From contig NZ_JANHAU010000002.1 of the NCBI RefSeq assembly GCF_024464185.1, positions 620,001 through 684,000 on the forward strand: DNA of 64,000 nt, read 5' to 3'. Position 1 is the first letter of the stretch. The number at the start of each line of letters is the position of its first letter. This DNA is from Haloarchaeobius salinus. Lineage in GTDB: Archaea; Halobacteriota; Halobacteria; Halobacteriales; Natrialbaceae. Shown in pieces: positions 9,263-21,442 of this stretch. The notes under the pieces are model-generated. The model saw only the letters and a program-made list of their open reading frames with translations, made no database searches and had not been told where the DNA came from. The position numbers were made by a program, and so were the translations under genes.

Positions 9263-10150
9263 CTACGCGCGATACCCGTCGACAGCGGCACGATAGCCGG
9301 CCCGGAACGTCGGATATCGGGGCTCGTATCCCAGCTCGCGGAGGCGGTCGTTCGAACAGCGTTTCGACGTGCGGATGCGTCGCTTGGCCGCCTCGGAGAG
9401 GTCGGGGTCGGCCAGTCGCTCCGCCTTGGTCTGCTTCGGCGGCTCCGGCACCCTGCACTGCTCGGCCAACCAGTCCGCGAACTCCCACTTCGAGACGGGC
9501 TCGTCGTCGACGACCTGCACGACGGCACCGCGTGCGAGGTCCTCCTCCAGCAGGAACCGGACCGCACCGGCGGCGTCGTCCCGGTGGACCATGTTCAGGT
9601 AGCCCTCCGTGACCGGTCCGGAGAGGTACCGCTCCAGACGGTAGCGGTCGGGACCGTACAGTCCAGCGAACCGAGCGACGGTCCCGTCGATGCCGTGGGT
9701 CTCGCCTGCCGCCAGCGCCAGCTCCTCGGCCTCGACCAGCACCTCGGTCTTCGGCGTCGTCGGGTCGAGCGGTGTCGACTCGTCGACCCAGTCGCCGTCG
9801 TGGTCGCCGTGGACGCCCGTACTGGAGGTGTAGACGAGCCGGTCCGGTGGCGACTCCCGCGCGGCGAAGTGGTCGAGCACGGTCCGCAGCCCGTCGATGT
9901 AGATCTCGCGCGCGGCGTCGGCACCGCGCCCGCCGGTGCTGGCGGCGAAGACGATGGCGTCCGCGTCGGGGACGGCCGCGAGGCTCTCGCCGTCGGTGAT
10001 GTCCGCCTCGACGGCCTCGAAGCCGGCCGCCTCGATGGCCGCCAGCCCGTCGGTCGAGCGCCGGACGCCGACGGCGTCGTGCCCCACCTCGGTCAACTGT
10101 CGTCCCAGTTCGATGCCGACGTAGCCACAGCCGAGGATCGCGACGCGCAT
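9263..10150 (-). CDS. NAD(P)-dependent epimerase/dehydratase-type SDR (YeeZ-like)
   Basis: A 295-residue extended-SDR-fold protein. MRVAILGCGYVGIELGRQL gives the N-terminal GxGxxG dinucleotide-binding loop, LVYTSSTGVHGDHDGDW carries the active-site Ser and nearby His where classical family members have Tyr-x-x-x-Lys, and NMVHRDDAAGAV is the typical late substrate-domain element. It resembles the YeeZ group, whose substrates are unknown, rather than sugar epimerases, since no YxxxK pair is evident. The ATG at 10150 begins exactly at the Rossmann strand. Its 5' end is overlapped, in another frame, by the run-on of the large gene upstream. Confidence 0.82.
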   Translation of the reverse strand: MRVAILGCGYVGIELGRQLTEVGHDAVGVRRSTDGLAAIEAAGFEAVEADITDGESLAAVPDADAIVFAASTGGRGADAAREIYIDGLRTVLDHFAARESPPDRLVYTSSTGVHGDHDGDWVDESTPLDPTTPKTEVLVEAEELALAAGETHGIDGTVARFAGLYGPDRYRLERYLSGPVTEGYLNMVHRDDAAGAVRFLLEEDLARGAVVQVVDDEPVSKWEFADWLAEQCRVPEPPKQTKAERLADPDLSEAAKRRIRTSKRCSNDRLRELGYEPRYPTFRAGYRAAVDGYRA

Positions 10151-13100
10151 GGACGGTGGTAGGAGGGAGACGGTGTTAGGGATGCCGGGATTCGACGGCG
10201 ATGGCAACCGTCGCGCGGTCTGACTACGGCTGGTGCGTCGCGATGACGTGCTGGATGTAGACGAACTCCCGGAACGTCATCGGGGCGCGGCGCTCGATCT
10301 TCTGCTGAACCTCCGTCGCCTCCAGGTTCAGCGGCAGCTCGGCCGTCACCGCGTCGATGTCGAGCACGCCCGTGGTCATCCCGAGCAGGAGATGCTCGCA
10401 GGCCATCTCGTGGACCGTGTCGGCGTCGGCGACACCGTCGGCCAGCGCCTGGATCGCTGCGGCCTGCTCCAGGGTCAGCTCCTCGGGGAGCTCCTCGTTC
10501 GCGACGGTCTCGACGAGCTGCCGGTCGAGCCCGGTCTCCTTGACGACTGCGTCCACGCCGTGGGCCTCGACGATGGCGGCGAGGTCTGCGGCGTACTCCG
10601 ATTCCAGCTCGGGCGGGGACTGCCCCGACACGTCGGTCCGGTGTTCGTGGAACATGGCTGTCCGTTCGGTCCGGCGCGTACAAGTCAGTGCTGCAATCGG
10701 ACGCGTTCCCGGCCTCCGTACCCGCGGGGGTGCCGGTCGCCGCCGGCCAGCGTTCGGCCCCCGGACACGGCCAGGCACCGGTGTGCTCGTCTGCGACCCC
10801 GTTCCTGTCCCCCACGCCCTGCTTGCCCGGTGGGACCGCCACGACGACGGCGACGCTGTTCTCGAAGGAGACGCGGTCGGCGTGTCCGACACGTTCCGGG
10901 TCCCCGTCACCGTCGACGTCGAACGCGACCGGGGACCCATCGCGGCTGTAGACGAACCCGCCCGGTTCCCCTGGGGTTCCTCGGTCGGCTCGCACGGTGA
11001 ACCGCGGATACGTCCCGCGAACGTCGACGACCCAGACGTTCGTCGTGACGACCCAGGAGTAAAGCGGCACCAGCGGGACGCCGGTGAACGTGTGTGGCAC
11101 CTCCTCGTCGCTGCTCCCGTTTAGGTAGCCCTCGACACCGTCCTGAAGCGCCGAGTGCGCCCCGGCGGCCACGAGGCTACGCTGTCGGTCGCGGAGGAAA
11201 CGGCTCGCGTCCCCGACCGGACCCTGCGGGAGCCGTGCGGCCTCGGACTGTCTCGCGTCCCGGACTGCAGTCGTCGCCCGGACCTGCAGTTCGTCGCGTT
11301 GTCGGGCGGTCACAGCGCCGTCCGGCGGCAGCCTGGTCGCGGCCTCGCCGGCGACCTGTGGTGCCAACGAGCCGTTCACGACCGCCTCCGCTCGCTCGGC
11401 CTCGGTCGGGTACCGCCCCAACGCCGCCGCGACGGCGGCGTCGGCCTCGGGATAGGCGAGCGTCGTCGTTGTCGCGAGGTCGACCGCGACCTGCTCCCGG
11501 ACGCTCGCCAGCGACTCGCCGACCGCGGTCCGGAGCCGCTCCCGTCGTTGCCGTGCGCTCGCGTTCTCGGCGACGCGGCCCGCGTGCTCCATCGCAGACA
11601 GTGCCGGGCTCCCCGTCGCGAGCGCGACGCTGTCCCCGCTGGCTCCCTCGTCGACCTGACGTGTCACGCTGTCGGCGGCCTCGCCGTACGGGACGGTGAA
11701 CAGGTTCACGTTCCGCGCGGTCAGCGGTGCGAACCCGTCCTCGCGCACCGCCCGGAGCCGGTCGGTGTCCAGCTCGCTCGTGACGAGGTACGACGGGCCG
11801 GCAGCGACGTCGAACGAGACCGGCCCCGCCGGGCCATCGCTGCCGAGCGTGGGTGCACCCGGCAGATTCGCGTTCGCGCTCGCGTCCATCGTCGCGTCAG
11901 CTTCGGCGAGCGAGTGGCCGTGGTCCGAGAGCACCTCGTCCATCCCGTCCCGGGTCCGGTCGGTCGCGTCGGCACGGGACTCGAGTTCGGCTTGGAGCTG
12001 GTCGAGGTACGCGGCCCGGGCGGCGGTCCGGAGTCGCCCCGCGACGCTCGGGTACGGGTCGGCTGCCGAGACGAGTTCGGGCCGGTCGGCGGCGATGCCG
12101 TCCGCCAGCGAGGTCGCGGGGCTCGCCGAGGTCACGAGGTCACCGTGCGTCGTCGTCACCGACCGGTTCCGCGTCCGGTCGCGGAGCGCGGCGGCGGCCA
12201 GATACGCGGTGTCCACGGCGTCCTCGGGCGGAGCTCCATGGACGACCGTCGGTGTCTCGTCGAGCCTCCCCGTCATGGCGGCGGTGGCCACCGAGTCCGG
12301 CCCACCGCGGTCGTCGACGACCGAGCGCACGTGCTGGCGCACGTCGGACGGGGTCTCGCCGCCGAGCACGCCACCGGGCTGGAACGCGCCCGGAACGTGG
12401 CCCTTGGGCCCCGGGGCGAGTGTCGCGGGCGTCGCGTCGACCGCCACGCCGACGCGGTCGGTCCGGTTCGCCGTGCGCTCGGTCTCGGTGCGGTTCGCGC
12501 CCCGGACCCAGACCGTGGTCGTCGTCTCTGTGACGGTGACGACGCGCTCGAACGTCAGGAACCGCGTCGCTCCGGACGGCCGGGACGGGACCGGCGCGGA
12601 GCCGGTTGAGACGGTGACAGCCCGGGTTGTGTGGCTCCCGCGTCGCTCCCAGCCCGGTCCCGGTGGGGCCGCGGGGAGCGCCGGCTCCGCGGCGACCTGC
12701 CTCGTCGTCGCGTGTACCAGGACCTCGGCGCTGTAGGTCCGTCGGACGACCTGTTCGACGGTCGGACCGTCGTCGCCGTCGAGCAGCCGGCGGAAGGCGT
12801 CGGTCGCGCTCTCGTTCACGCCGACTGTCACCGGGTCGTCGTGCGTCGTCCGTGGCGAGCCGGTCTCGGGGACCGCCGACACGTTCGGGTCCGCGTTGGC
12901 GAACGACCCGTCCATGTCCCCCAGAACGAGGTCCGTCCACTGCCCCGGACTGATGCCGGTCTCGCCCGGAGCCTGGTCGAGCGCCTCCTGTGCCAGCAGC
13001 CGAGCGCGTGCTCGCCCGAGTGCCCGTCGCCCCGCGTCGTCGCTCGCGCCGAAGACGCCTCGCTGGGTCGCCAGCGCCGCCTCGTTGGCCGACAGTGAGA

Positions 13101-13821
13101 CGTGGCGGTTCCCGAGCACGTTGTCGACGGGGAGCCCGCCGAACTGTCCGTAGCCGCGGGCCCACGTCCAGGCGTACAGCCGTGAGGCGAACTGGCGACC
13201 GAGCCCCGGGCCCTCGGTCGGGCCACGGTTCAGCCGTCGCTCGTACTCGGTCACGCGGTCGTGGGTGGCCAGTACCGGCGTCGCACTCGTGAGGCGGACC
13301 GTCTCCGTCCGCCGGTCGACGGCGCGGTCGTGCCGCCAGAGCGTCACTGAGACGTTCGAGATGGCCACGGACACGGTGCCGTTCCCCGTCCTGGTGAGCG
13401 AGACGCGCTCGATGGCCGCCCGCGCGTCGGCCGTGCCGTCGATTGACGGGAGGGCGGCCGTCGCCCGTGCGTCGCCCGCACGGGCACCGACGCCGGCGAG
13501 CGCTCCTCGTGCCTGCAGGTACACCCGGAGTTCGAGCGCGTCGCGGAACGGCCGCGACCCGTTTAGCACCCGGCCGTACGTCGTGTTCGCCGGAGAGACG
13601 ACCGGGTCGGCGGCCGCGTTCCGGGCCGCACGCTGGACCGCCGCCCGGAGTGCGGTCGTCACCGCGGCGTCGGCGCGCTCCATCGCCACGTCGCCGTCGG
13701 CCTCGGCACCGCCCGGTTGGCGCGTGGCGAACGTCGCCGCGAGCGTCGCGCTGCTGACAAGCAACAGGATACCGACGATGGCGAACGGAACCCGCGCTCG
13801 CTCGTCGTCCGCGAGTCTCAC
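10093..13821 (-). CDS. Large pilus-cluster protein with N-terminal membrane anchor (DUF7286-like), expected stop lost
   Basis: An exported or membrane-anchored protein. One hydrophobic helix (VPFAIVGILLLVSSATLAAT, about residues 11-30) is followed by a very long, Thr/Ala-rich extracytoplasmic region. The compositionally normal part ends near residue 1051 at DCSTDLYAPD (10669). No in-frame stop follows, and the frame runs to 10093 through an Arg-rich tail that overlaps the next gene in another register. The codon after LYAPD is CGA at 10666-10668, one transition from TGA, so a lost stop or a sequence error is likely. The GTG at 13821 overlaps the preceding stop as GTGA. The name is recalled from haloarchaeal annotations of the same neighbourhood. 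Confidence 0.75.
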   Translation of the reverse strand: MRLADDERARVPFAIVGILLLVSSATLAATFATRQPGGAEADGDVAMERADAAVTTALRAAVQRAARNAAADPVVSPANTTYGRVLNGSRPFRDALELRVYLQARGALAGVGARAGDARATAALPSIDGTADARAAIERVSLTRTGNGTVSVAISNVSVTLWRHDRAVDRRTETVRLTSATPVLATHDRVTEYERRLNRGPTEGPGLGRQFASRLYAWTWARGYGQFGGLPVDNVLGNRHVSLSANEAALATQRGVFGASDDAGRRALGRARARLLAQEALDQAPGETGISPGQWTDLVLGDMDGSFANADPNVSAVPETGSPRTTHDDPVTVGVNESATDAFRRLLDGDDGPTVEQVVRRTYSAEVLVHATTRQVAAEPALPAAPPGPGWERRGSHTTRAVTVSTGSAPVPSRPSGATRFLTFERVVTVTETTTTVWVRGANRTETERTANRTDRVGVAVDATPATLAPGPKGHVPGAFQPGGVLGGETPSDVRQHVRSVVDDRGGPDSVATAAMTGRLDETPTVVHGAPPEDAVDTAYLAAAALRDRTRNRSVTTTHGDLVTSASPATSLADGIAADRPELVSAADPYPSVAGRLRTAARAAYLDQLQAELESRADATDRTRDGMDEVLSDHGHSLAEADATMDASANANLPGAPTLGSDGPAGPVSFDVAAGPSYLVTSELDTDRLRAVREDGFAPLTARNVNLFTVPYGEAADSVTRQVDEGASGDSVALATGSPALSAMEHAGRVAENASARQRRERLRTAVGESLASVREQVAVDLATTTTLAYPEADAAVAAALGRYPTEAERAEAVVNGSLAPQVAGEAATRLPPDGAVTARQRDELQVRATTAVRDARQSEAARLPQGPVGDASRFLRDRQRSLVAAGAHSALQDGVEGYLNGSSDEEVPHTFTGVPLVPLYSWVVTTNVWVVDVRGTYPRFTVRADRGTPGEPGGFVYSRDGSPVAFDVDGDGDPERVGHADRVSFENSVAVVVAVPPGKQGVGDRNGVADEHTGAWPCPGAERWPAATGTPAGTEAGNASDCSTDLYAPDRTDSHVPRTPDRRVGAVPARAGIGVRRRPRRHRRGPRRGRSRQGDRARPAARRDRRERGAPRGADPGAGRSDPGAGRRCRRRRHGPRDGLRASPARDDHGRARHRRGDGRAAAEPGGDGGSAEDRAPRPDDVPGVRLHPARHRDAPAVVRPRDGCHRRRIPASLTPSPSYHRPCASRSSAVATSASNWDDS
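10224..10655 (-). CDS. DUF5791 family protein
   Basis: A 143-residue acidic, helix-rich protein beginning MFHEHRTDVSGQSPPELESE. The middle, ELTLEQAAAIQALADG, and the end, QQKIERRAPMTFREFVYIQH, fit the haloarchaeal DUF5791 family, which is small, cytoplasmic and of unknown role. Its ATG lies just after the apparent true end of the large pilus-cluster protein, so it is the next gene of the same transcript. The reading frame of that upstream gene overlaps it entirely because the upstream stop is missing, but the composition of this frame is clearly the coding one. Confidence 0.82.
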   Translation of the reverse strand: MFHEHRTDVSGQSPPELESEYAADLAAIVEAHGVDAVVKETGLDRQLVETVANEELPEELTLEQAAAIQALADGVADADTVHEMACEHLLLGMTTGVLDIDAVTAELPLNLEATEVQQKIERRAPMTFREFVYIQHVIATHQP

Positions 13822-14714
13822 GCCGACCACGTCCTGACGGTGACCGTCGCGGTCTCGACCGAGACCAGCGCCGCGGCGGCGGTCGGGTCGTCGGTTCTCG
13901 TCTCGAGGTCGCGGGCGTACCGTGTGGCGAGCGCGTCGGTGAGGATACTGTTTGCCCGTCTGACCGACCCGTCCGCGACGGCACCGTCGAGCCCGACGCC
14001 GAGTGCGGCCGCGGTTCGGCGGTAGTGGCTGGCCGTTCGCTGGTCGGCCGATGCCTCCCCGACGAGCGCCAGCCGCGTCGGTTCGGGCGGGAACAGGCGG
14101 GTGATCATCGTGCTCGCGGCCTGTCGTGCGACGGCGTCGACCGTCCGTGGTTCGTCGGCACCGGTTGCCTCAGTCGCCCCGTTTCCGGCCACGGGTACCT
14201 GGAGCGTCGCGGTGTGGACGTCGACGCCAGGCGGTGGGCCGTCACCGACGACCAGGCGGCCCGCGAGCGGCGCGTCCGGATACGCCCGCCACGTGACGAC
14301 GACCTGCCACGAAGACCGGATGCCGGCGAGTCGCTGATGTGTCGCGTTCCTGACGCCGCGCTCGAACCCGGAGCCCTCGGCGGCGGCAGTCACGTCGGCG
14401 ACCGCGGCATGGGCGAGGAGGTCGGCGACAGTGCCGTGGGCGGTCCGGCAGTCGTCGGGGCGGGAGCCGCCGTCGACTCGGCAGGCGACCGCCGCTCGAC
14501 CGCCGCTTCCCCCGTCCGGTCCCGTCGCGGCGTAGTGCACCGTCGTGGTCGTCGTGCCCAGCAGCGAGGCCGCGCGGTCCGCGGTGTCCGAGTCGTCCGG
14601 GGTGGGCCGGTCGACCGTCGCGAGGACTCCGACGGCGGCGGTGACGAAGAGCAGGCAGACCGCCACGTCGAGCACGGTGCTGACTGCGCGGCCGCCGGCG
14701 GAGTCGGGGAGCAT
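13818..14714 (-). CDS. Pilin-like membrane-anchored protein (DUF7284-like) of Tad-like cluster
   Basis: A 298-residue protein with a short polar leader MLPDSAGGRAVST and one hydrophobic helix (VLDVAVCLLFVTAAVGVLA, about residues 14-32), then an extracytoplasmic region rich in Ala, Thr and Asp. This layout, a charged short leader with RAVS just before the helix, is that of archaeal pilin-like or TadE/F-like proteins. Two cysteines (ACRVDGGSRPDDCR) could form a disulphide. Its start overlaps the stop of the preceding gene by one base and its stop overlaps the next gene's GTG, which points to tight coupled expression. Function is inferred from the cluster. Confidence 0.8.
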   Translation of the reverse strand: MLPDSAGGRAVSTVLDVAVCLLFVTAAVGVLATVDRPTPDDSDTADRAASLLGTTTTTVHYAATGPDGGSGGRAAVACRVDGGSRPDDCRTAHGTVADLLAHAAVADVTAAAEGSGFERGVRNATHQRLAGIRSSWQVVVTWRAYPDAPLAGRLVVGDGPPPGVDVHTATLQVPVAGNGATEATGADEPRTVDAVARQAASTMITRLFPPEPTRLALVGEASADQRTASHYRRTAAALGVGLDGAVADGSVRRANSILTDALATRYARDLETRTDDPTAAAALVSVETATVTVRTWSA

Positions 14715-15106
14715 CACGTCCACACCTCCACGTGGAGCCGTCCCGAGACGACCACGCCCGGTGCGACGCGGACGCTCACCGGACGTGCGGCGGTCGCGGC
14801 AGTCGGCGGTGCTGCGGGGCCAGCACGCCACCGTTCGCCGTCGGCCGCAAGCGTCACCGCGACGTGGTAGCCGTCCGGGCCGGCCGCGAGCGCCTCGTTC
14901 AGGTCCGCAGGGTCGGCGACGCCGGTCTCGGTCAGCGACTCGTGGACCCGCGAGAGCGTCGGCTCCGCGACCCGGCGTGAGTCCTCCGCGACGGGCAGCG
15001 AGTCGAGCGCGCCGGCGTACAGCGTCAGTCCGACCGCGACCGCGAACACGGCGACGAGCGCGGCGGTCGGCTCGACCTGCGCCCTACGCGTCGACCAGCG
15101 TGACAT
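14714..15106 (-). CDS. Small pilin-like membrane protein (DUF7285-like) of Tad-like cluster
   Basis: A 130-residue protein with a basic leader MSRWSTRRAQVEP and then one membrane helix TAALVAVFAVAVGLTLYAG. The RAQVEP-helix arrangement is like TadE/TadF minor pilins, where a Glu sits at the start of the helix. The remaining 95 residues are a compact outside domain ending VVSGRLHVEVWT. The start overlaps the 3' end of the upstream gene by 23 nt in a different frame. It would be a minor pilin or assembly factor of the ATPase/GspF machine encoded upstream, an inference from position and architecture. Confidence 0.8.
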   Translation of the reverse strand: MSRWSTRRAQVEPTAALVAVFAVAVGLTLYAGALDSLPVAEDSRRVAEPTLSRVHESLTETGVADPADLNEALAAGPDGYHVAVTLAADGERWRAGPAAPPTAATAARPVSVRVAPGVVVSGRLHVEVWT

Positions 15107-15560
15107 CCAGCTCACCCCATTCGAGGTGCCTGACGACGAGCTGGTCGTCGGCGGGCCGCCAGTCGGCGTCGGCGGCGCGCTCGCGGGCGGCCTCGACGGC
15201 CTCGCGGAAGGCGGCCAGCGAGTCGAACGCTCGTCCGGGTGGCACACCTCGGGCGACGCGAGTGAGGGCGTCGTCGCCGCCGACGGGGACGACCGGCCCG
15301 AAGGCGAACGTGGCGTGGCTCGTCTCGCCGTCGGTCCGGAGGGCGAGTCGGTGCGGGCGGAGTCTGACCCGGTCAGCGTCGAGCGGATGCTCGGCCGAGC
15401 TGGGGTAGCTGGAGCCGGCGACGGCGTCGACAGTGTCGGCGGCGGCCGACGCGTCGGGCGCGGGACGGGTCGGCAGGTCGGTCGCGACGCCGGCGACGGC
15501 GACGCTGGCGACCGCGACGGCGACCCAGGTATACCAGACGTCGGGTGGTGCGTCGAACAT
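15084..15560 (-). CDS. Membrane-anchored protein (DUF7283-like) of Tad-like cluster
   Basis: A 158-residue protein starting MFDAPPDVWYTWVAVAVASV, with one hydrophobic helix at about residues 9-27 followed by an outside domain. Conserved-looking elements are HPLDADRVRLRPHRLALR and the C-terminal VVRHLEWGELDVTLVDA. Haloarchaeal genomes carry this protein in the same place, between the GspF-like gene and the pilin-like genes (recalled as DUF7283). It lacks a lipobox or a Tat motif. Its role is unknown; it may be a minor pilin or a coupling protein of the assembly platform. It starts 33 nt after the GspF-like gene. Confidence 0.8.
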   Translation of the reverse strand: MFDAPPDVWYTWVAVAVASVAVAGVATDLPTRPAPDASAAADTVDAVAGSSYPSSAEHPLDADRVRLRPHRLALRTDGETSHATFAFGPVVPVGGDDALTRVARGVPPGRAFDSLAAFREAVEAARERAADADWRPADDQLVVRHLEWGELDVTLVDA

Positions 15561-15593
15561 GCCGACCCTGGCCGCGGCTCCGTACTTGAACCC

Positions 15594-17345
15594 TCAGACG
15601 ACCACGCCCGCGGCGACGACGCTCCCGACGTAGACACAGACCGCGGTCGGGAGCGCGCGGCCGACGTGGAGCCCGACGAGCGCGCGGTCGAGGCCGTGAC
15701 GGAGCCCGGTCGAGAGGACGGTGAGGACGACCGCGAGCAGGCAGACGTAGACGCCGACGACGATGCCGAGGTCGGCCGTCGGGAGCGGCGGGACGCCTGT
15801 CGCGCTGCCACCGGCTCCCGCGCCGCCGAGACCCGCCGCTCCGGTGCTGCCGTCGATCCCCATCCCAGCTGCCAGCGCGACCGTCGCGCCCGCGACGAGC
15901 GGGCCGAACGTCGTGGCCGTGCTGGCCAGCGTCCCGGTCACGCGTGCGAGGTCGGTGCGACAGTCGCGCTCCAGCGCCTGCAGGTCGGCGAGGTGGTCGG
16001 CCATGGAGACGAGCGCGCGACCGGCCGGCGCACCCTCCTCGCTGGCGAGGCCGAGCAGCGTCGCGGTTCCCCTGGCCCGCGGGCTCGGCACGTCCGCGAG
16101 CGCGCCGTGGTCGCCGAGGAACGCGCGCTCGACGCCGACGCGGAGCTGGCGCTGGCGGCTGGCCGCCGTCGCGAACGTCTCGCCGGTCTCGCCCTCGACC
16201 TCCGCAGCGGCGCGTTCGACGGCCGACTCGACCGCTGTACCCTCCGAGACGCGCCGGCCGACGAGGTAGAGCGCGTCGACGAGGTCCGCCTCGACGGCCC
16301 GTGCGTGGTCCCGGACCGACGCGATGGGCCGGTAGCGGACGAGGAGCGCGACGCCGGCACCCATCGCGATGCCGACCAGCGGTGGGGTCCACGGCGGCGC
16401 GACGATACCAGCCAGTGCCGCACCGCCGACGCCGGCACCGAGCCCGCCAACGAGCGCGCGCCAGGGCCGGTCCGGTACGTCGGGGTGCGAACGCGGCACC
16501 GACGGTGGTGGGAACGCGACCGGACGGCGGGCGAACAGCCACGCACTCGCCCCGAGCAGGCAACAGGGGAGCGCCACGTCGTAGACGAGCACCAGGACGC
16601 CGACGGTGACCGGGACGCCGGCGACCCGCGCGGCCGGGAGCACGGCGACGAGCGCGAGCGGCAGGAGCACGCCGAACGCGTAGATGCCCGTCGCAGGACC
16701 CTGGATGCGTGCGCCGAACTCGTCCATCCGGTCGCGGGTCCCCCGCGTGACGGCGGTCATCGCCCGGTCGAGGGTGCGCCCGCGCTCGCCCGGCGGCGCG
16801 TCGGCGGCCGCGTCGACGAGGTGGAGGGCGCGGCGGAGCGCCGGGAACTCCGCGCCCCACTCGTCGGCGAAGGACCCGAGTCCGGACCCGGGTGCGCCAC
16901 GAGCACGGCGGACGTGGCCCGCGAGGCTCCGCGCCAGCGGCCCGTCGTCGGTCTCGGCCGCGAAGGCGGCGGCGCGCTCGGCCGCGGGTTCGACGTGCAT
17001 CCGCAGGACCGCTCGGCCGACCAGGTCGGGTGCGTCACCGAGTGCGGCGGTCCGACGGGCGCTCGCGAGTGCGCCGGGAGCGACGTGGACGGCGTGTGTG
17101 ACGCCGAGCCCGAGCGCGGCGGCGACGAGCGGCACGGTCGTGGGGGAGAGCGAGAGGACGAGTGCGACGGCGGTGCCGGCGAACGCGGCCAGCGCACCCA
17201 TCACGTAGCCGGCCCGGACGACCGTCGCGGCGTCGACCTCGGCCCCGACGAAGGCGAGCGCACGCCCCAGTTCGCCGCTCGTATCGACGGGCCACGGGTA
17301 CCCACGGCCGAGTAGCGAGAGCACGATAGCGAGACGGGACGTCAC
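15594..17345 (-). CDS. Type II secretion system F / TadC-like double-domain membrane protein
   Basis: A 583-residue inner-membrane platform protein. It contains two tandem GspF-type domains, each with a cytoplasmic helical bundle (about residues 100-190 and 340-460) followed by paired membrane helices, as in archaeal FlaJ/PilC-type proteins. The second bundle includes AFLGDHGALADVPSPRARG and the AGRALVSMADHLADLQALER stretch. Such platforms convert motion of the secretion ATPase into pilus assembly or secretion. The GTG start at 17345 overlaps the stop of the ATPase gene as GTGA, so the two proteins are made together. Confidence 0.88.
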   Translation of the reverse strand: MTSRLAIVLSLLGRGYPWPVDTSGELGRALAFVGAEVDAATVVRAGYVMGALAAFAGTAVALVLSLSPTTVPLVAAALGLGVTHAVHVAPGALASARRTAALGDAPDLVGRAVLRMHVEPAAERAAAFAAETDDGPLARSLAGHVRRARGAPGSGLGSFADEWGAEFPALRRALHLVDAAADAPPGERGRTLDRAMTAVTRGTRDRMDEFGARIQGPATGIYAFGVLLPLALVAVLPAARVAGVPVTVGVLVLVYDVALPCCLLGASAWLFARRPVAFPPPSVPRSHPDVPDRPWRALVGGLGAGVGGAALAGIVAPPWTPPLVGIAMGAGVALLVRYRPIASVRDHARAVEADLVDALYLVGRRVSEGTAVESAVERAAAEVEGETGETFATAASRQRQLRVGVERAFLGDHGALADVPSPRARGTATLLGLASEEGAPAGRALVSMADHLADLQALERDCRTDLARVTGTLASTATTFGPLVAGATVALAAGMGIDGSTGAAGLGGAGAGGSATGVPPLPTADLGIVVGVYVCLLAVVLTVLSTGLRHGLDRALVGLHVGRALPTAVCVYVGSVVAAGVVV

Positions 17346-19267
17346 GACCAGCCACCGTCTTCGGGCACGTCGCCGTCGACCTCGCCGGCGAGCGAGGCGA
17401 TGCTCTCGGCGCGGTCGGCCAGCGCCTCGCGCACGTCGGCGTAGGACTCGCCGGGGCGGGCGAGGGCCACCACGAGTTCGCTCTCGCCGCGGTCGATGCG
17501 CCCGGTCGGCTCCAGCTCGCGGCCGTCGAGTTCGAACAGCGGCGCGAAGGAGACACCGTCGTCCCCACCGGTACGGACCTCCTCGATGCGGCAGACGCGC
17601 CGAACGCTCCCATCCGGCGTGTCGAGCGGTCGGAGCGTGACGACGAGGTCCGTGACGGCGAACGAGGAGACGGGAACACCGAGATCCGAGACGACGCGCT
17701 CTTTCACATCCGCACCACCGTCGCCGTGGATCGTCCCAAGCACCGCGCTCCCGCTCGCACCGACGCGCATCGCCTCGTAGAGCACGCGTGCCTCCTCGCC
17801 GCGGACCTCGCCGACGACGAGCGCACCCTCGCCCAGCCGGAGCGCGGTGCGGAGCGCCTCGTCGGGGGCGACGCTCGGCCCGTCGTCGGTCGCCGTTCGG
17901 AGTGCCTGCACGTCCCGCCCGTGGCTCTGGAGGCTCGCGACCGGGAGTTCGGGGGTGTCCTCGATGACGACGGTCCTCGTCTCGACGGGGAGCTCCCAGA
18001 GCAGCGCGCCGAGCGTGGTCGTCTTGCCCGCGCCGCGGGTCCCGGCGACCAGCGTGGCGGCGGCTCGCTCGACCGCGAGCGAGAGCACGGCGGCGGCCCG
18101 GGGGGTCACGGAGTCGACGGCGACGAGCCGTGGGAGCGTCCAGGCCTCGGTGCCCGAGCGGCGGAACGCGAAGCCGTAGCCGTCGCTGACCGGTTCGGTG
18201 ACGCCGGCGACGCGGATCTGCTCTCCCGCGACCGTCGCCGTCGCGTCGAGCGTCGGGCTTGCCCTGGAGAACGCACGGCCGCTCTCGCGACGGAACCGGG
18301 AGGCGAGTGCGGCCGCGCCGTCGGCGGTCAGGCGAACGTTCGTCGGCATGGTGTGTCCGTCGGCGGTCACCCGGAGCGGGGTCCCGGTGACCGGTGCAGA
18401 GGCGAACACGTCGGAGACCGCGTCGTCGGCGAAGCAGTCGGTCAGCACGCCGAAGCCGCGGGTGTGCTTCCGGAGGACCGCCGAGAGCGTCTCGACCGGG
18501 TCGTCGTCGTCCGCGACGGCACGGACGGCCCGGCCCGGCGCGCGTCGGCCCGCACCGTCGTCGTCGACGGCACCGTCCGCGGTCCCCGACGCGAGCCGTT
18601 CGTAGGCGGCGTCGAGCGTCCGCAGACTCGCCGGGTCCAGCCGGTGCTCGACCGGCTCGACGTGGTAGCGCCGTCGGCCCGCTGCGTCCTCGTACTCGCG
18701 CACCGCCGCGTCGGTGTCCGTCTCGCGAGCCCGCAGCAGCGTCGCGCCCGGTGGGGGCGTCGCCGCGACCCTGGCGCGGGCGAGCGACGGAGCCACGTAC
18801 GGGCGGAGCACGGCTTCGTACCGGCCGATGTCCGCGTCGCCACCCGCCGCGAGCTTCCGTGCGCGCTTCGCTGCGAGCGCGAGGCCCGTCTCGGCGGCGG
18901 CGTCCGCGACCGGTCCGGTGCGTGCCTCGGCGTCCGCTGCCGCCCGGAGCGGGTCCGTCTCGGCACGGTCGGCAAGCGTCGGGTCGCGGTGCGCGACGGT
19001 CTCGGCGAACCGGCCGGCCGCGACGAGCAGCGCCGCGGCGTCGTCCTCGTAGGCGCGGTCGACACCCTCGGCCCGACAGACGACACGGTCGGCGTCGCGC
19101 GAGGCGAGGGCCCCGACGACGGTCGCCCGACAGTCCGGTACCGTCGCGAGGTCGCCACGGCCGTCACAGTCGCTCGCGTCGACCAGCAGTCGGTCGTCCT
19201 CGAACCGAGGGCGACAGCCACAGCGGTCGTCGTCATCGTCGCCCAGCAGCGAACGGAGTGGTCCCAT
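17342..19267 (-). CDS. Type II/IV secretion system (pilus assembly) ATPase
   Basis: A 641-residue GspE/VirB11-superfamily ATPase, the motor of the cluster. The C-terminal half has the Walker A VAGTRGAGKTTTLGA at about residues 408-422, an Asp box (VVIEDTPELP), the Walker B GALVVGEVRGEE at about 481-491, and a His box (LGTIHGDG). The N-terminal half is a family-specific domain that begins with five cysteines at residues 16, 18, 34, 46 and 64, possibly a metal site. It works with the GspF-like protein encoded next. The ATG at 19267 is used; the extra codons upstream cross the DUF7311-like gene. Confidence 0.92.
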   Translation of the reverse strand: MGPLRSLLGDDDDDRCGCRPRFEDDRLLVDASDCDGRGDLATVPDCRATVVGALASRDADRVVCRAEGVDRAYEDDAAALLVAAGRFAETVAHRDPTLADRAETDPLRAAADAEARTGPVADAAAETGLALAAKRARKLAAGGDADIGRYEAVLRPYVAPSLARARVAATPPPGATLLRARETDTDAAVREYEDAAGRRRYHVEPVEHRLDPASLRTLDAAYERLASGTADGAVDDDGAGRRAPGRAVRAVADDDDPVETLSAVLRKHTRGFGVLTDCFADDAVSDVFASAPVTGTPLRVTADGHTMPTNVRLTADGAAALASRFRRESGRAFSRASPTLDATATVAGEQIRVAGVTEPVSDGYGFAFRRSGTEAWTLPRLVAVDSVTPRAAAVLSLAVERAAATLVAGTRGAGKTTTLGALLWELPVETRTVVIEDTPELPVASLQSHGRDVQALRTATDDGPSVAPDEALRTALRLGEGALVVGEVRGEEARVLYEAMRVGASGSAVLGTIHGDGGADVKERVVSDLGVPVSSFAVTDLVVTLRPLDTPDGSVRRVCRIEEVRTGGDDGVSFAPLFELDGRELEPTGRIDRGESELVVALARPGESYADVREALADRAESIASLAGEVDGDVPEDGGWS

Positions 19268-19292
19268 GCCGCCCCTGGCCGCCCGCTCCGGT

Positions 19293-19745
19293 TTAAACTT
19301 CGACCCGGTCGACGTGCACACCGTCCAGTGCGAGCGTGAGGCGCAGCTCGTAGCGGCCGCTCCCCTCGAGCACGAGGGGTCCATCGGCGTCGGTGACGAG
19401 CCGGAACGGGAGTTCGACGGTCCGGGGGTCGCCGCCAGCGAGTGCGTAGGCGACGACGTGTGGGTCGCGGTCCGCCACGTCGGGGCGTCCCCCGAGTGCG
19501 ACCCAGTCGACACTGGCGGTCGTCAAGCTCTCGCCCGGGACCCGCAGCGTGACGAACCGTCGCGGCCCGGTCGCGGGCGACGGTGTCGGGGCCTCGAGGC
19601 CGAGTAGCGCCGTCCCCGCGCGTTCGAGAGCCGTCAGGTCGGTCGCGACGACGCGGTCGCTCCGGTGTTCGCGGGCGTCCGCCGCGGCGGGGGCGGCCAC
19701 GGCGAACAGCGCGAGCGTGACGGCGACCGCGAGGACGACGCGCAT
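19293..19745 (-). CDS. Exported protein (DUF7311-like) of Tad-like cluster
   Basis: A 150-residue protein with an N-terminal signal peptide (MRVVLAVAVTLALFAVAAPA, cleavage probably after ADA near residue 23) and a mature domain predicted to be beta-rich, with repeated RFVTLRVPGES and YELRLTLALDG elements. It is placed between the coiled-coil gene and the ATPase gene. Its ATG overlaps the stop of the coiled-coil gene by one base, so it is coupled to it. No cysteine for a lipid anchor is seen. A role as a periplasm-side or S-layer-side partner of the pilus machine is inferred only. Confidence 0.8.
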   Translation of the reverse strand: MRVVLAVAVTLALFAVAAPAAADAREHRSDRVVATDLTALERAGTALLGLEAPTPSPATGPRRFVTLRVPGESLTTASVDWVALGGRPDVADRDPHVVAYALAGGDPRTVELPFRLVTDADGPLVLEGSGRYELRLTLALDGVHVDRVEV

Positions 19746-20293
19746 CACAGCAGGTCACGCAGCCGGGCGAGCAGCCCGGGGTCCGCGTCGGTGTCGTCCT
19801 CGCTCTCGAAGCGTGGCGCGGGGGATGTCGGCCACTCGGCGTCGAGCGTCCGGTCGCGTCGTCCGGTGGTCGGTCGGTCGTCGTCCTGCTGGTCGTCGCA
19901 GTGCGGGCAGTGCCCGTCGTGACTGGGTTCACGGTGTTCGCGTGACTGGGTCGGAGCCGTCTCGAGCTCGTCGACGCGGACCTCCAGCGTCTCGACCGCG
20001 GCCAGGGCTGCGTCGGCACGCTCTTCGACGCGTTCGTCGACCGACCGGACCTTGCCGGCGTAGCCACGGAGCGCCTGGACGGCGGCCTCGACCTCGGACA
20101 GCGTCGTCTCGGCGTCGTCGAGGCGCGATTCGAACTCGTCGAGGCGGTCGCCCTCCCGCTCGTCGTGTCGCCGGGCTGACCGGTGGTCAGCGTTCGGTTC
20201 GTCGGGCGTCGTCGTCACGCTCGCGGCGCGGTCGGTCGACCCATCCAGCGCGCGTTCGACTGCGCGGAGCCTGTCCTCGAGGGTGTCGGGCAT
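19745..20293 (-). CDS. Coiled-coil protein (DUF7310-like), first gene of Tad-like cluster
   Basis: A 182-residue soluble, acidic protein. Residues 1-25 (MPDTLEDRLRAVERALDGST) form an amphipathic helix, and the centre (about 45-125) shows heptad periodicity typical of a coiled coil, with LDEFESRLDDAETTLSEVE and ADAALAAVETLEVRVDELE. A lone CPHC pair follows near residue 135, then a charged tail ending LLARLRDLL. It heads the minus-strand secretion cluster and is divergent from cetZ with only 75 nt between the two start codons. It may be a cytoplasmic adaptor; that is inference. Confidence 0.82.
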   Translation of the reverse strand: MPDTLEDRLRAVERALDGSTDRAASVTTTPDEPNADHRSARRHDEREGDRLDEFESRLDDAETTLSEVEAAVQALRGYAGKVRSVDERVEERADAALAAVETLEVRVDELETAPTQSREHREPSHDGHCPHCDDQQDDDRPTTGRRDRTLDAEWPTSPAPRFESEDDTDADPGLLARLRDLL

Positions 20294-20368: not shown

Positions 20369-21442
20369 ATGAAAGTCGTCCTGATTGGTGTCGGGCAGGC
20401 CGGTGGGAAGCTCACCCAGGCCCTGGCCGAGTTCGACTACGAGATGGACTTCGACGCCGTCCGCGGCGCACTCGCCGTGAACACGGCGGAGACGGACCTC
20501 CAGACGCTCGATATCGAGACACAGCTCATCGGCCAGGACCGCGTGCGCGGCCACGGCGTCGGTGGCGACAACGAGCTCGGTGCCGAGGTGATGCAGGAGG
20601 ACGCCGTCGAGGTGATGGACGCCCTCGACGGGAAGATAACCGCGGAGGCGGAGGCGGTCTTCGTCGTCGCCGGCCTCGGCGGCGGCACCGGCTCCGGCGG
20701 TGCACCCGTCCTCGTCCGCGAGCTCAAGCGGGTCTACGACGTGCCCGTCTACGCACTCGGTATCCTCCCCGGACGCGGCGAGGGGTCGATGTACCAGGCC
20801 AACGCCGGCCGTTCGCTCAAGACCGTCGTGCGGGAGGCCGACTCGACCATCCTCGTCGACAACGATGCGTGGCACGACGCCGGCGAGTCCGTCGAGGCCG
20901 CGTTCGACACCATCAACCGGAACATCGCCCAGCGCATCGGGCTGCTCTTTGCCTCCGGCGAGAACGTCGAGGGCGTCGGCGAGTCGGTCGTCGACTCCTC
21001 GGAGATCATCAACACGCTCCGCGAGGGCGGCATCGCCTGCGTCGGCTACGCCAGCGCCGCCGCCGGCGAGGACGCCGAGGACAACATCAACGCGGTCACG
21101 AGCATCACGCGCTCGGCCCTCTTCACGGGCACGAGCCTCCCCGACGCGGTGACGGCCGACGCCGCCCTCCTCGTCGTCGCCGGCCGTCCGGACGCCATCC
21201 CGCGCAAGGGCGTCGAGCGCGCACGGAGCTGGGTCGAGGACCAGACCGGCAGCCTCCAGGTCCGGGGTGGCGACTTCCCGCTCGACTCCGACCGCCTCGC
21301 GGCGCTGGTGCTGCTCGGCGGCGTCGAGCGCTCCCCGCGCATCGACGAGTTCATGGAGCGCGCACGGGAGGCACAGCAGGAACAGGAGCAGGTCGACCAC
21401 ACCGCGAACTTCCAGAACGACCAGCTCGACGACCTGTTCTGA
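20369..21442 (+). CDS. CetZ family tubulin-like GTPase
   Basis: A 357-residue member of the tubulin/FtsZ superfamily of the archaeal CetZ branch. The N-terminal strand MKVVLIGVGQAGGKL holds the first nucleotide-contact loop, and the tubulin signature GGGTGSG sits at residues 104-110. The middle has VDNDAWHDAGESVEAAF and NRNIAQRIG, and the protein ends in an acidic FtsZ-like tail QNDQLDDLF. CetZ proteins control cell shape, motility and polar organisation in haloarchaea rather than ring division. The gene diverges from a Tad-like secretion cluster and its stop is one base from the convergent SHOCT gene. Confidence 0.92.
   Translation: MKVVLIGVGQAGGKLTQALAEFDYEMDFDAVRGALAVNTAETDLQTLDIETQLIGQDRVRGHGVGGDNELGAEVMQEDAVEVMDALDGKITAEAEAVFVVAGLGGGTGSGGAPVLVRELKRVYDVPVYALGILPGRGEGSMYQANAGRSLKTVVREADSTILVDNDAWHDAGESVEAAFDTINRNIAQRIGLLFASGENVEGVGESVVDSSEIINTLREGGIACVGYASAAAGEDAEDNINAVTSITRSALFTGTSLPDAVTADAALLVVAGRPDAIPRKGVERARSWVEDQTGSLQVRGGDFPLDSDRLAALVLLGGVERSPRIDEFMERAREAQQEQEQVDHTANFQNDQLDDLF

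Follow-up and report, generated by a model that had tools for sequence, protein, structure and literature searches.

A pilB2/pilC2-type operon beside cetZ2 in Haloarchaeobius salinus encodes candidate prepilins

What does an archaeal operon build when it encodes the motor of a type IV filament system and no readily recognized major pilin? The question is raised by eight genes in a 64,000-nucleotide stretch of the Haloarchaeobius salinus genome (hereafter the window), all on the minus strand and running from 20293 down to about 10650 (Table 1). Neighbouring genes overlap at five of the seven junctions (by 1 nt at 19745, 4 nt at 17345, 23 nt at 15106, 1 nt at 14714 and 4 nt at 13821), and intergenic gaps of 25 nt and 33 nt lie ahead of the ATPase and DUF7283 genes, respectively. 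An earlier note on this DNA had described a coiled-coil protein, an exported protein, a secretion ATPase, a TadC-like protein and four further proteins encoded in one direction, most with overlapping stop and start codons, and this description stands. The span it gave, 13818-20293, contains seven of the genes; the DUF7286 gene lies outside it, from 13821 to about 10650. Since seven of the eight operon proteins match a Pfam family with E values of about 1e-16 or lower, and since the gene order recurs across families, the operon is not due to chance.

Table 1. Features of the operon and its neighbours, with positions in the window.
Feature	Position	Strand	Evidence
DUF7310, coiled-coil cytoplasmic protein, probably arCOG07564 of Makarova subclade 4F	19745..20293	-	PF23991 E 5.9e-21; leads operon in nearly all relatives
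DUF7311, exported or N-terminally anchored	19293..19745	-	PF23993 E 5.1e-36; single N-terminal hydrophobic segment
PilB2-type secretion ATPase, 641 aa, N-terminal cysteine motif	17342..19267	-	T2SSE 1.1e-16; TadA-like 2.6e-33
PilC2, TadC/GspF-like multi-pass membrane protein, 583 aa, GTG start	15594..17345	-	T2SSF sub-threshold E 0.007; at least 7 hydrophobic segments
DUF7283, single N-terminal hydrophobic segment, without prepilin motif	15084..15560	-	PF23954 E 1.6e-56; co-occurrence with ATPase
DUF7285, 130 aa, small candidate prepilin, signal RAQVEPTAALVAV	14714..15106	-	PF23956 E 4.7e-38; class III-like motif in orthologs
DUF7284, 298 aa, medium candidate minor pilin, signal RAVSTVLDVAV, alpha/beta domain	13818..14714	-	PF23955 E 2.1e-75
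DUF7286, giant protein (about 1020-1060 aa), one N-terminal anchor helix, R-A-R-V-P-F-A motif	10642..13821	-	PF23957 1019 bits over all 1000 profile positions
cetZ2, tubulin-like, divergent neighbour upstream	20369..21442	+	PF21011 2.9e-67
DUF5791, conserved downstream neighbour	10224..10655	-	PF19104 2.6e-44; after DUF7286 in most relatives

At the upstream end, the stop codon of the DUF7310 gene occupies 19747-19745, and the adjoining DUF7311 went undetected in some relatives. At the downstream end, the DUF7286 frame stays open to 10093, running through the DUF5791 gene and overlapping it out of frame. A sequencing frameshift at this end was considered and rejected, as the same out-of-frame reading into DUF5791 occurs in all five of the other Haloarchaeobius genomes searched (L171-L175); it can also be seen in genome L091, which is apparently the same strain as L172.

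The divergent CetZ gene points to the identity of the operon. Its product scores 504 bits to PDB 4B45 and 328 bits to PDB 4B46, which are CetZ2 and CetZ1 of H. volcanii, respectively (PMC9856176), and most Haloferacales and Halobacteriales carry cetZ2 next to a pilB2/C2 type IV regulon (arCOG01818; PMC9856176). The published regulon resembles the operon in its CetZ2 neighbour, ATPase, TadC-like protein, several predicted pilins and one predicted surface protein, and its neighbours also include a predicted phosphodiesterase/nucleotide pyrophosphatase. We found no substantial difference between the two, with probable orthology to the H. volcanii gene drawn via CetZ2 and the Haloferax sulfurifontis and H. 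elongans loci; the putative assignment of the ATPase to arCOG01818 likewise comes from the CetZ2 neighbour and the Haloferax orthologs. On these sequence grounds, the operon is the Haloarchaeobius-type copy of the published haloarchaeal pilB2/pilC2 regulon beside cetZ2, an already known rather than a new machine. The earlier suggestion that the system is unnamed in haloarchaea is therefore mistaken, given the existing names pilB2/pilC2 and arCOG01818 (PMC9856176; PMC4858521) and probably pil-2 (PMC4292770).

The operon also fits subclade 4F of Makarova, Koonin and Albers (2016). In that subclade the N-terminus of the ATPase is rich in cysteines, the ATPase has nanoarchaeal relatives, a gene of the FtsZ family lies nearby, and the halobacterial system has a coiled-coil component found in no other (PMC4858521). 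All four features have counterparts here, namely the ATPase cysteines (of 18 orthologs, all have C18 and at least 90% have each of C16, C34 and C46), the DUF7310 coiled coil, CetZ2, and DPANN among the nearest relatives of the ATPase. PilA-family major pilins proposed for this subclade are arCOG02981 and arCOG10216 (PMC4858521). Published placements disagree, as a later paper assigns H. volcanii PilB2 to 4C (PMC6491452) and not to the 4F group linked with cetZ. The operon is probably the same system as pil-2 of Hbt. salinarum R1 (OE1347R-OE1332R), for which Losensky and colleagues reported three FlaFind-predicted prepilins and a pilB2 induced 8.5-fold in attached cells (PMC4292770). The pil-2 locus resembles the operon in its divergent PilB2 (arCOG01818), PilC2, predicted prepilins and restriction to haloarchaea. 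The pilC2 gene of pil-2 differs in carrying an in-frame stop (PMC4292770), and because the pil-2 locus measures 6.9 kb, compared with 8.6 kb from the ATPase to DUF7286 here, some doubt attaches to gene-for-gene identity.

The two motor proteins bear out the proposal of a Tad/type IV pilus-type motor, with a T2SSE/TadA-like ATPase beside a TadC-like protein. The Walker A motif (GTRGAGKTT) and the GEVRGEEA box of the ATPase are intact and conserved, its best profile match is a TadA-type model, and its matches among solved structures include an archaeal type II secretion ATPase (2oap) and chains of CpaF and FlaI. This likeness to the bacterial Tad pilus (CpaF/TadA, TadC) does not extend to a Flp pilin, a prepilin peptidase or a secretin, none of which was identified in the cluster. 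The ATPase is 90% identical to that of Haloarchaeobius sp. FL176, and its nearest outside relatives were placed in DPANN (including Nanohaloarchaea), Thermoplasmata, Hadarchaeota and Archaeoglobi by a scan and a quick tree, whose long branches make deep placement approximate. Grouping within an archaellum or PilB/PilC family with a known filament, the case raised in the earlier note as a refutation, is not seen in the strict sense: the ATPase lies outside FlaI, the tree sets it apart from each of the five further secretion ATPases compared from its genome, and its family is a published one with no demonstrated filament. The PilC2 gene adjoins the ATPase gene in halobacterial loci, incomplete contigs aside. 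Its product is a multi-pass membrane protein and a putative GspF/TadC platform, with a below-cut-off T2SSF match in the C-terminal half (366-483, E 0.007); this match and the alignment of the two halves to each other with hhalign (P 9e-4, probability 23%) lend the proposed double domain weak support.

Gene order is kept across Halobacteria, and the genes recur together as the earlier note had stated. In 40 loci from diverse genomes, which were chosen by DUF7283 or the ATPase so that the counts describe order and not frequency, 34 have the ATPase, TadC and DUF7283 side by side and 21 have a divergent CetZ upstream. Named loci of Haloferax, Haloarcula, Halorubrum, Halorientalis, Natrarchaeobius and others are arranged alike, some of them lacking CetZ, and DUF7286 is present in 299 of 391 genomes of the class, covering 66 of 86 genera. 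Co-occurrence of DUF7283 and the orthologous ATPase is near-perfect among 194 Halobacteria (144 with both, three with DUF7283 alone, none with the ATPase alone and 47 with neither; raw counts, uncorrected for the relatedness of the genomes). Where the DUF7283-7286 block has no motor nearby, an ATPase ortholog is encoded elsewhere in each of the five such genomes tested. Because of this co-occurrence and the retention of the ATPase in the five split genomes, the parts of the operon most likely form one functional unit.

The missing pilin is partly a product of a strict motif. It is correct that the QxSxExxxL motif is absent from the operon proteins, but pilin-like signals are recognizable in two of them. 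Class III-like prepilin signals were detected in 55 of 63 DUF7285 orthologs and 46 of 56 DUF7284 orthologs, compared with 85 of 714 background frames (about 12%), using a FlaFind-like rule. DUF7285 and DUF7284 can accordingly be regarded as candidate prepilins, with the charged residue ahead of the helix missing in several DUF7284 orthologs. The same scan found the signal in 4 of 67 DUF7283 orthologs and the class III consensus in none of 62 DUF7286 orthologs, 55 of which share a conserved start of their own (R-[AG]-[RL]-[VIL]-P-[FVL]-A). The unusual sizes reported for the three single-helix proteins (130, 298 and about 1050 residues) agree with those in Table 1. DUF7284 is predicted well (pLDDT 83.6), with an alpha/beta domain after its N-terminal helix, and DUF7286 moderately (pLDDT 75.9), with a single anchor helix joined to several domains of mixed type. 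Foldseek searches of both models against the PDB returned nothing at E 0.001, and the best VIA-align Z scores, 6.1 (a ribosomal protein S3-like arrangement) and 6.6 (T4 gp25, one segment), fall below a meaningful level; these searches do not imply that the proteins lack a known fold.

The earlier note was also right that the operon has no prepilin peptidase gene. One Peptidase_A24 gene (PF01478, over cut-off) lies on another contig of the genome, and six PilA-type Pilin_N genes (PF07790) over cut-off are found elsewhere in it. Since the genome encodes both, an operon without them is ordinary, and placement of the peptidase and PilA-family pilins away from such an operon is usual for haloarchaea. 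The PilB3-C3/PilA pili of H. volcanii are similar, in that a motor pair without a linked major pilin is served by pilins in trans, and the PilB3-C3 operon makes pili without a pilin gene of its own (PMC4858521). They differ in that the ATPase belongs to clade 2, adhesion pili have been demonstrated, and the paper on that locus names no predicted pilins in it.

We favour the reading, at a probability of about 0.72, that this copy of the pilB2/pilC2 regulon encodes a machine for assembling type IV filaments, with minor pilins dedicated to it and a major pilin supplied in trans. A PibD-type peptidase encoded elsewhere would trim the class III-like signals of DUF7285 and DUF7284, and the PilB2 ATPase would drive PilC2 to pull these single-helix subunits out of the membrane. 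A dedicated minor-pilin or tip/adhesin set could be formed by DUF7283, DUF7285, DUF7284 and the giant DUF7286, the bulk pilin would come from the PilA family, and regulation or positioning of the machine may fall to the DUF7310 coiled coil and CetZ2. The analysis shows the gene content, the family membership, the intact motifs of the ATPase, the conserved signals and the near-perfect co-occurrence of the ATPase with DUF7283; processing, the filament, the tip role and the major pilin in trans are what we infer. Several observations count against a filament assembler: the lack of the class III consensus in DUF7283 and DUF7286, models of DUF7284 and DUF7286 that resemble no solved pilin in the inconclusive fold searches, DUF7284 orthologs without a charge before the helix, and a cited PilB2/C2 literature that reports no filament, phenotype or secreted substrate.

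It is possible, if unlikely, that the operon instead encodes a pseudopilus-type exporter, in which a short membrane-anchored piston of DUF7283, DUF7285, DUF7284 and DUF7286 pushes out an unlinked substrate or exposes DUF7286 on the surface instead of growing into a long pilus. The graded sizes of the single-helix proteins (small, medium and very large) may recall the layout of the minor pseudopilins of type II secretion, and such an exporter would also account for a cluster that has no major pilin and for the inseparability of DUF7283 and the ATPase across genomes. No secretin or substrate gene is linked to the cluster, however, and the pili made by the pilin-free PilB3-C3 operon (PMC4858521) weigh against reading much into the missing major pilin. 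A similarly doubtful reading is that PilB2/C2 assembles or displays a surface complex centred on DUF7286 rather than a classical pilus, with DUF7283, DUF7285 and DUF7284 as the sole filament-like parts and CetZ2 guiding its placement.

The argument of Makarova and colleagues that ATPase/TadC modules swap pilin sets (PMC4858521), together with the two blocks lying apart in some genomes, would allow the single-helix proteins to be ordinary membrane-anchored proteins and the ATPase-TadC pair a shared motor for other pilin sets, the operon being a co-regulated envelope module and not one machine; we consider this quite improbable, as the ATPase ortholog is kept in all five split genomes tested and never occurs without DUF7283 among the 194 genomes. 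A variant archaellum, suggested by the superfamily that the ATPase shares with FlaI, is almost certainly wrong: the ATPase scores 85.9 bits against the NCBIfam FlaI model (cut-off 550), by which archaellum membership is rejected, whereas the true FlaI encoded elsewhere in the genome scores 842 bits, and the cluster yielded no gene for archaellin or for any further archaellum component.

In conclusion, the operon is a known machine in another species, for which type IV filament assembly is the favoured function and pseudopilus-like export a less likely alternative. About three quarters of sampled Halobacteria carry a machine of the PilB2/C2 type. With its identity and obligatory parts fixed, a list of domains of unknown function (DUF7283 to DUF7286, DUF7310 and DUF7311) becomes one testable unit, which also opens a genetic route to explaining why a tubulin-like gene adjoins a pilus operon.

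At several loci (L047-L049, L063, L071 and L078), the DUF7283-7286 block lies apart from the genes for the ATPase and the TadC-like protein, and the genomes with a detached block retain the ATPase elsewhere. Two orthologous ATPase loci per genome were also found (genomes G058, G141 and G161; locus pairs L054/L055 and L057/L058); in G058 and G161 each of the two ATPases sits in its own cluster copy, and cetZ adjoins just one of the two copies. The genome of the window additionally encodes a very divergent secretion ATPase (L005), which forms a separate long branch and is followed by a TadC-like multi-pass frame. The genes found after cetZ2, the divergent tubulin-like neighbour of the operon, are listed below; published cetZ2 neighbours likewise include a predicted phosphodiesterase/nucleotide pyrophosphatase.

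Coordinates of the features discussed
Locus	Position	Feature
Window	21938-24244	Genes after cetZ2, encoding phosphodiesterase/nucleotide pyrophosphatase and inorganic pyrophosphatase
L005	274-2496	Secretion ATPase, 740 aa
Window	10093-10655	DUF7286 frame extending into DUF5791
L091	18628-19103	DUF7286 frame extending into DUF5791
L171-L175		DUF7286 frame extending into DUF5791

In all genus members sampled, the reading frame of the giant DUF7286 protein enters the downstream DUF5791 gene out of frame. Its tail varies strongly in length between Haloarchaeobius species, and long tails are Arg-rich in the genomes sampled. Between the window and L091, substitutions in the overlap fall mainly at third positions of DUF5791, and the DUF7286 tail is therefore probably not under selection. 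The DUF7286 model also scores above its cut-off in the methanogen control Methanosarcina acetivorans, and the giant protein may therefore not be strictly haloarchaeal.
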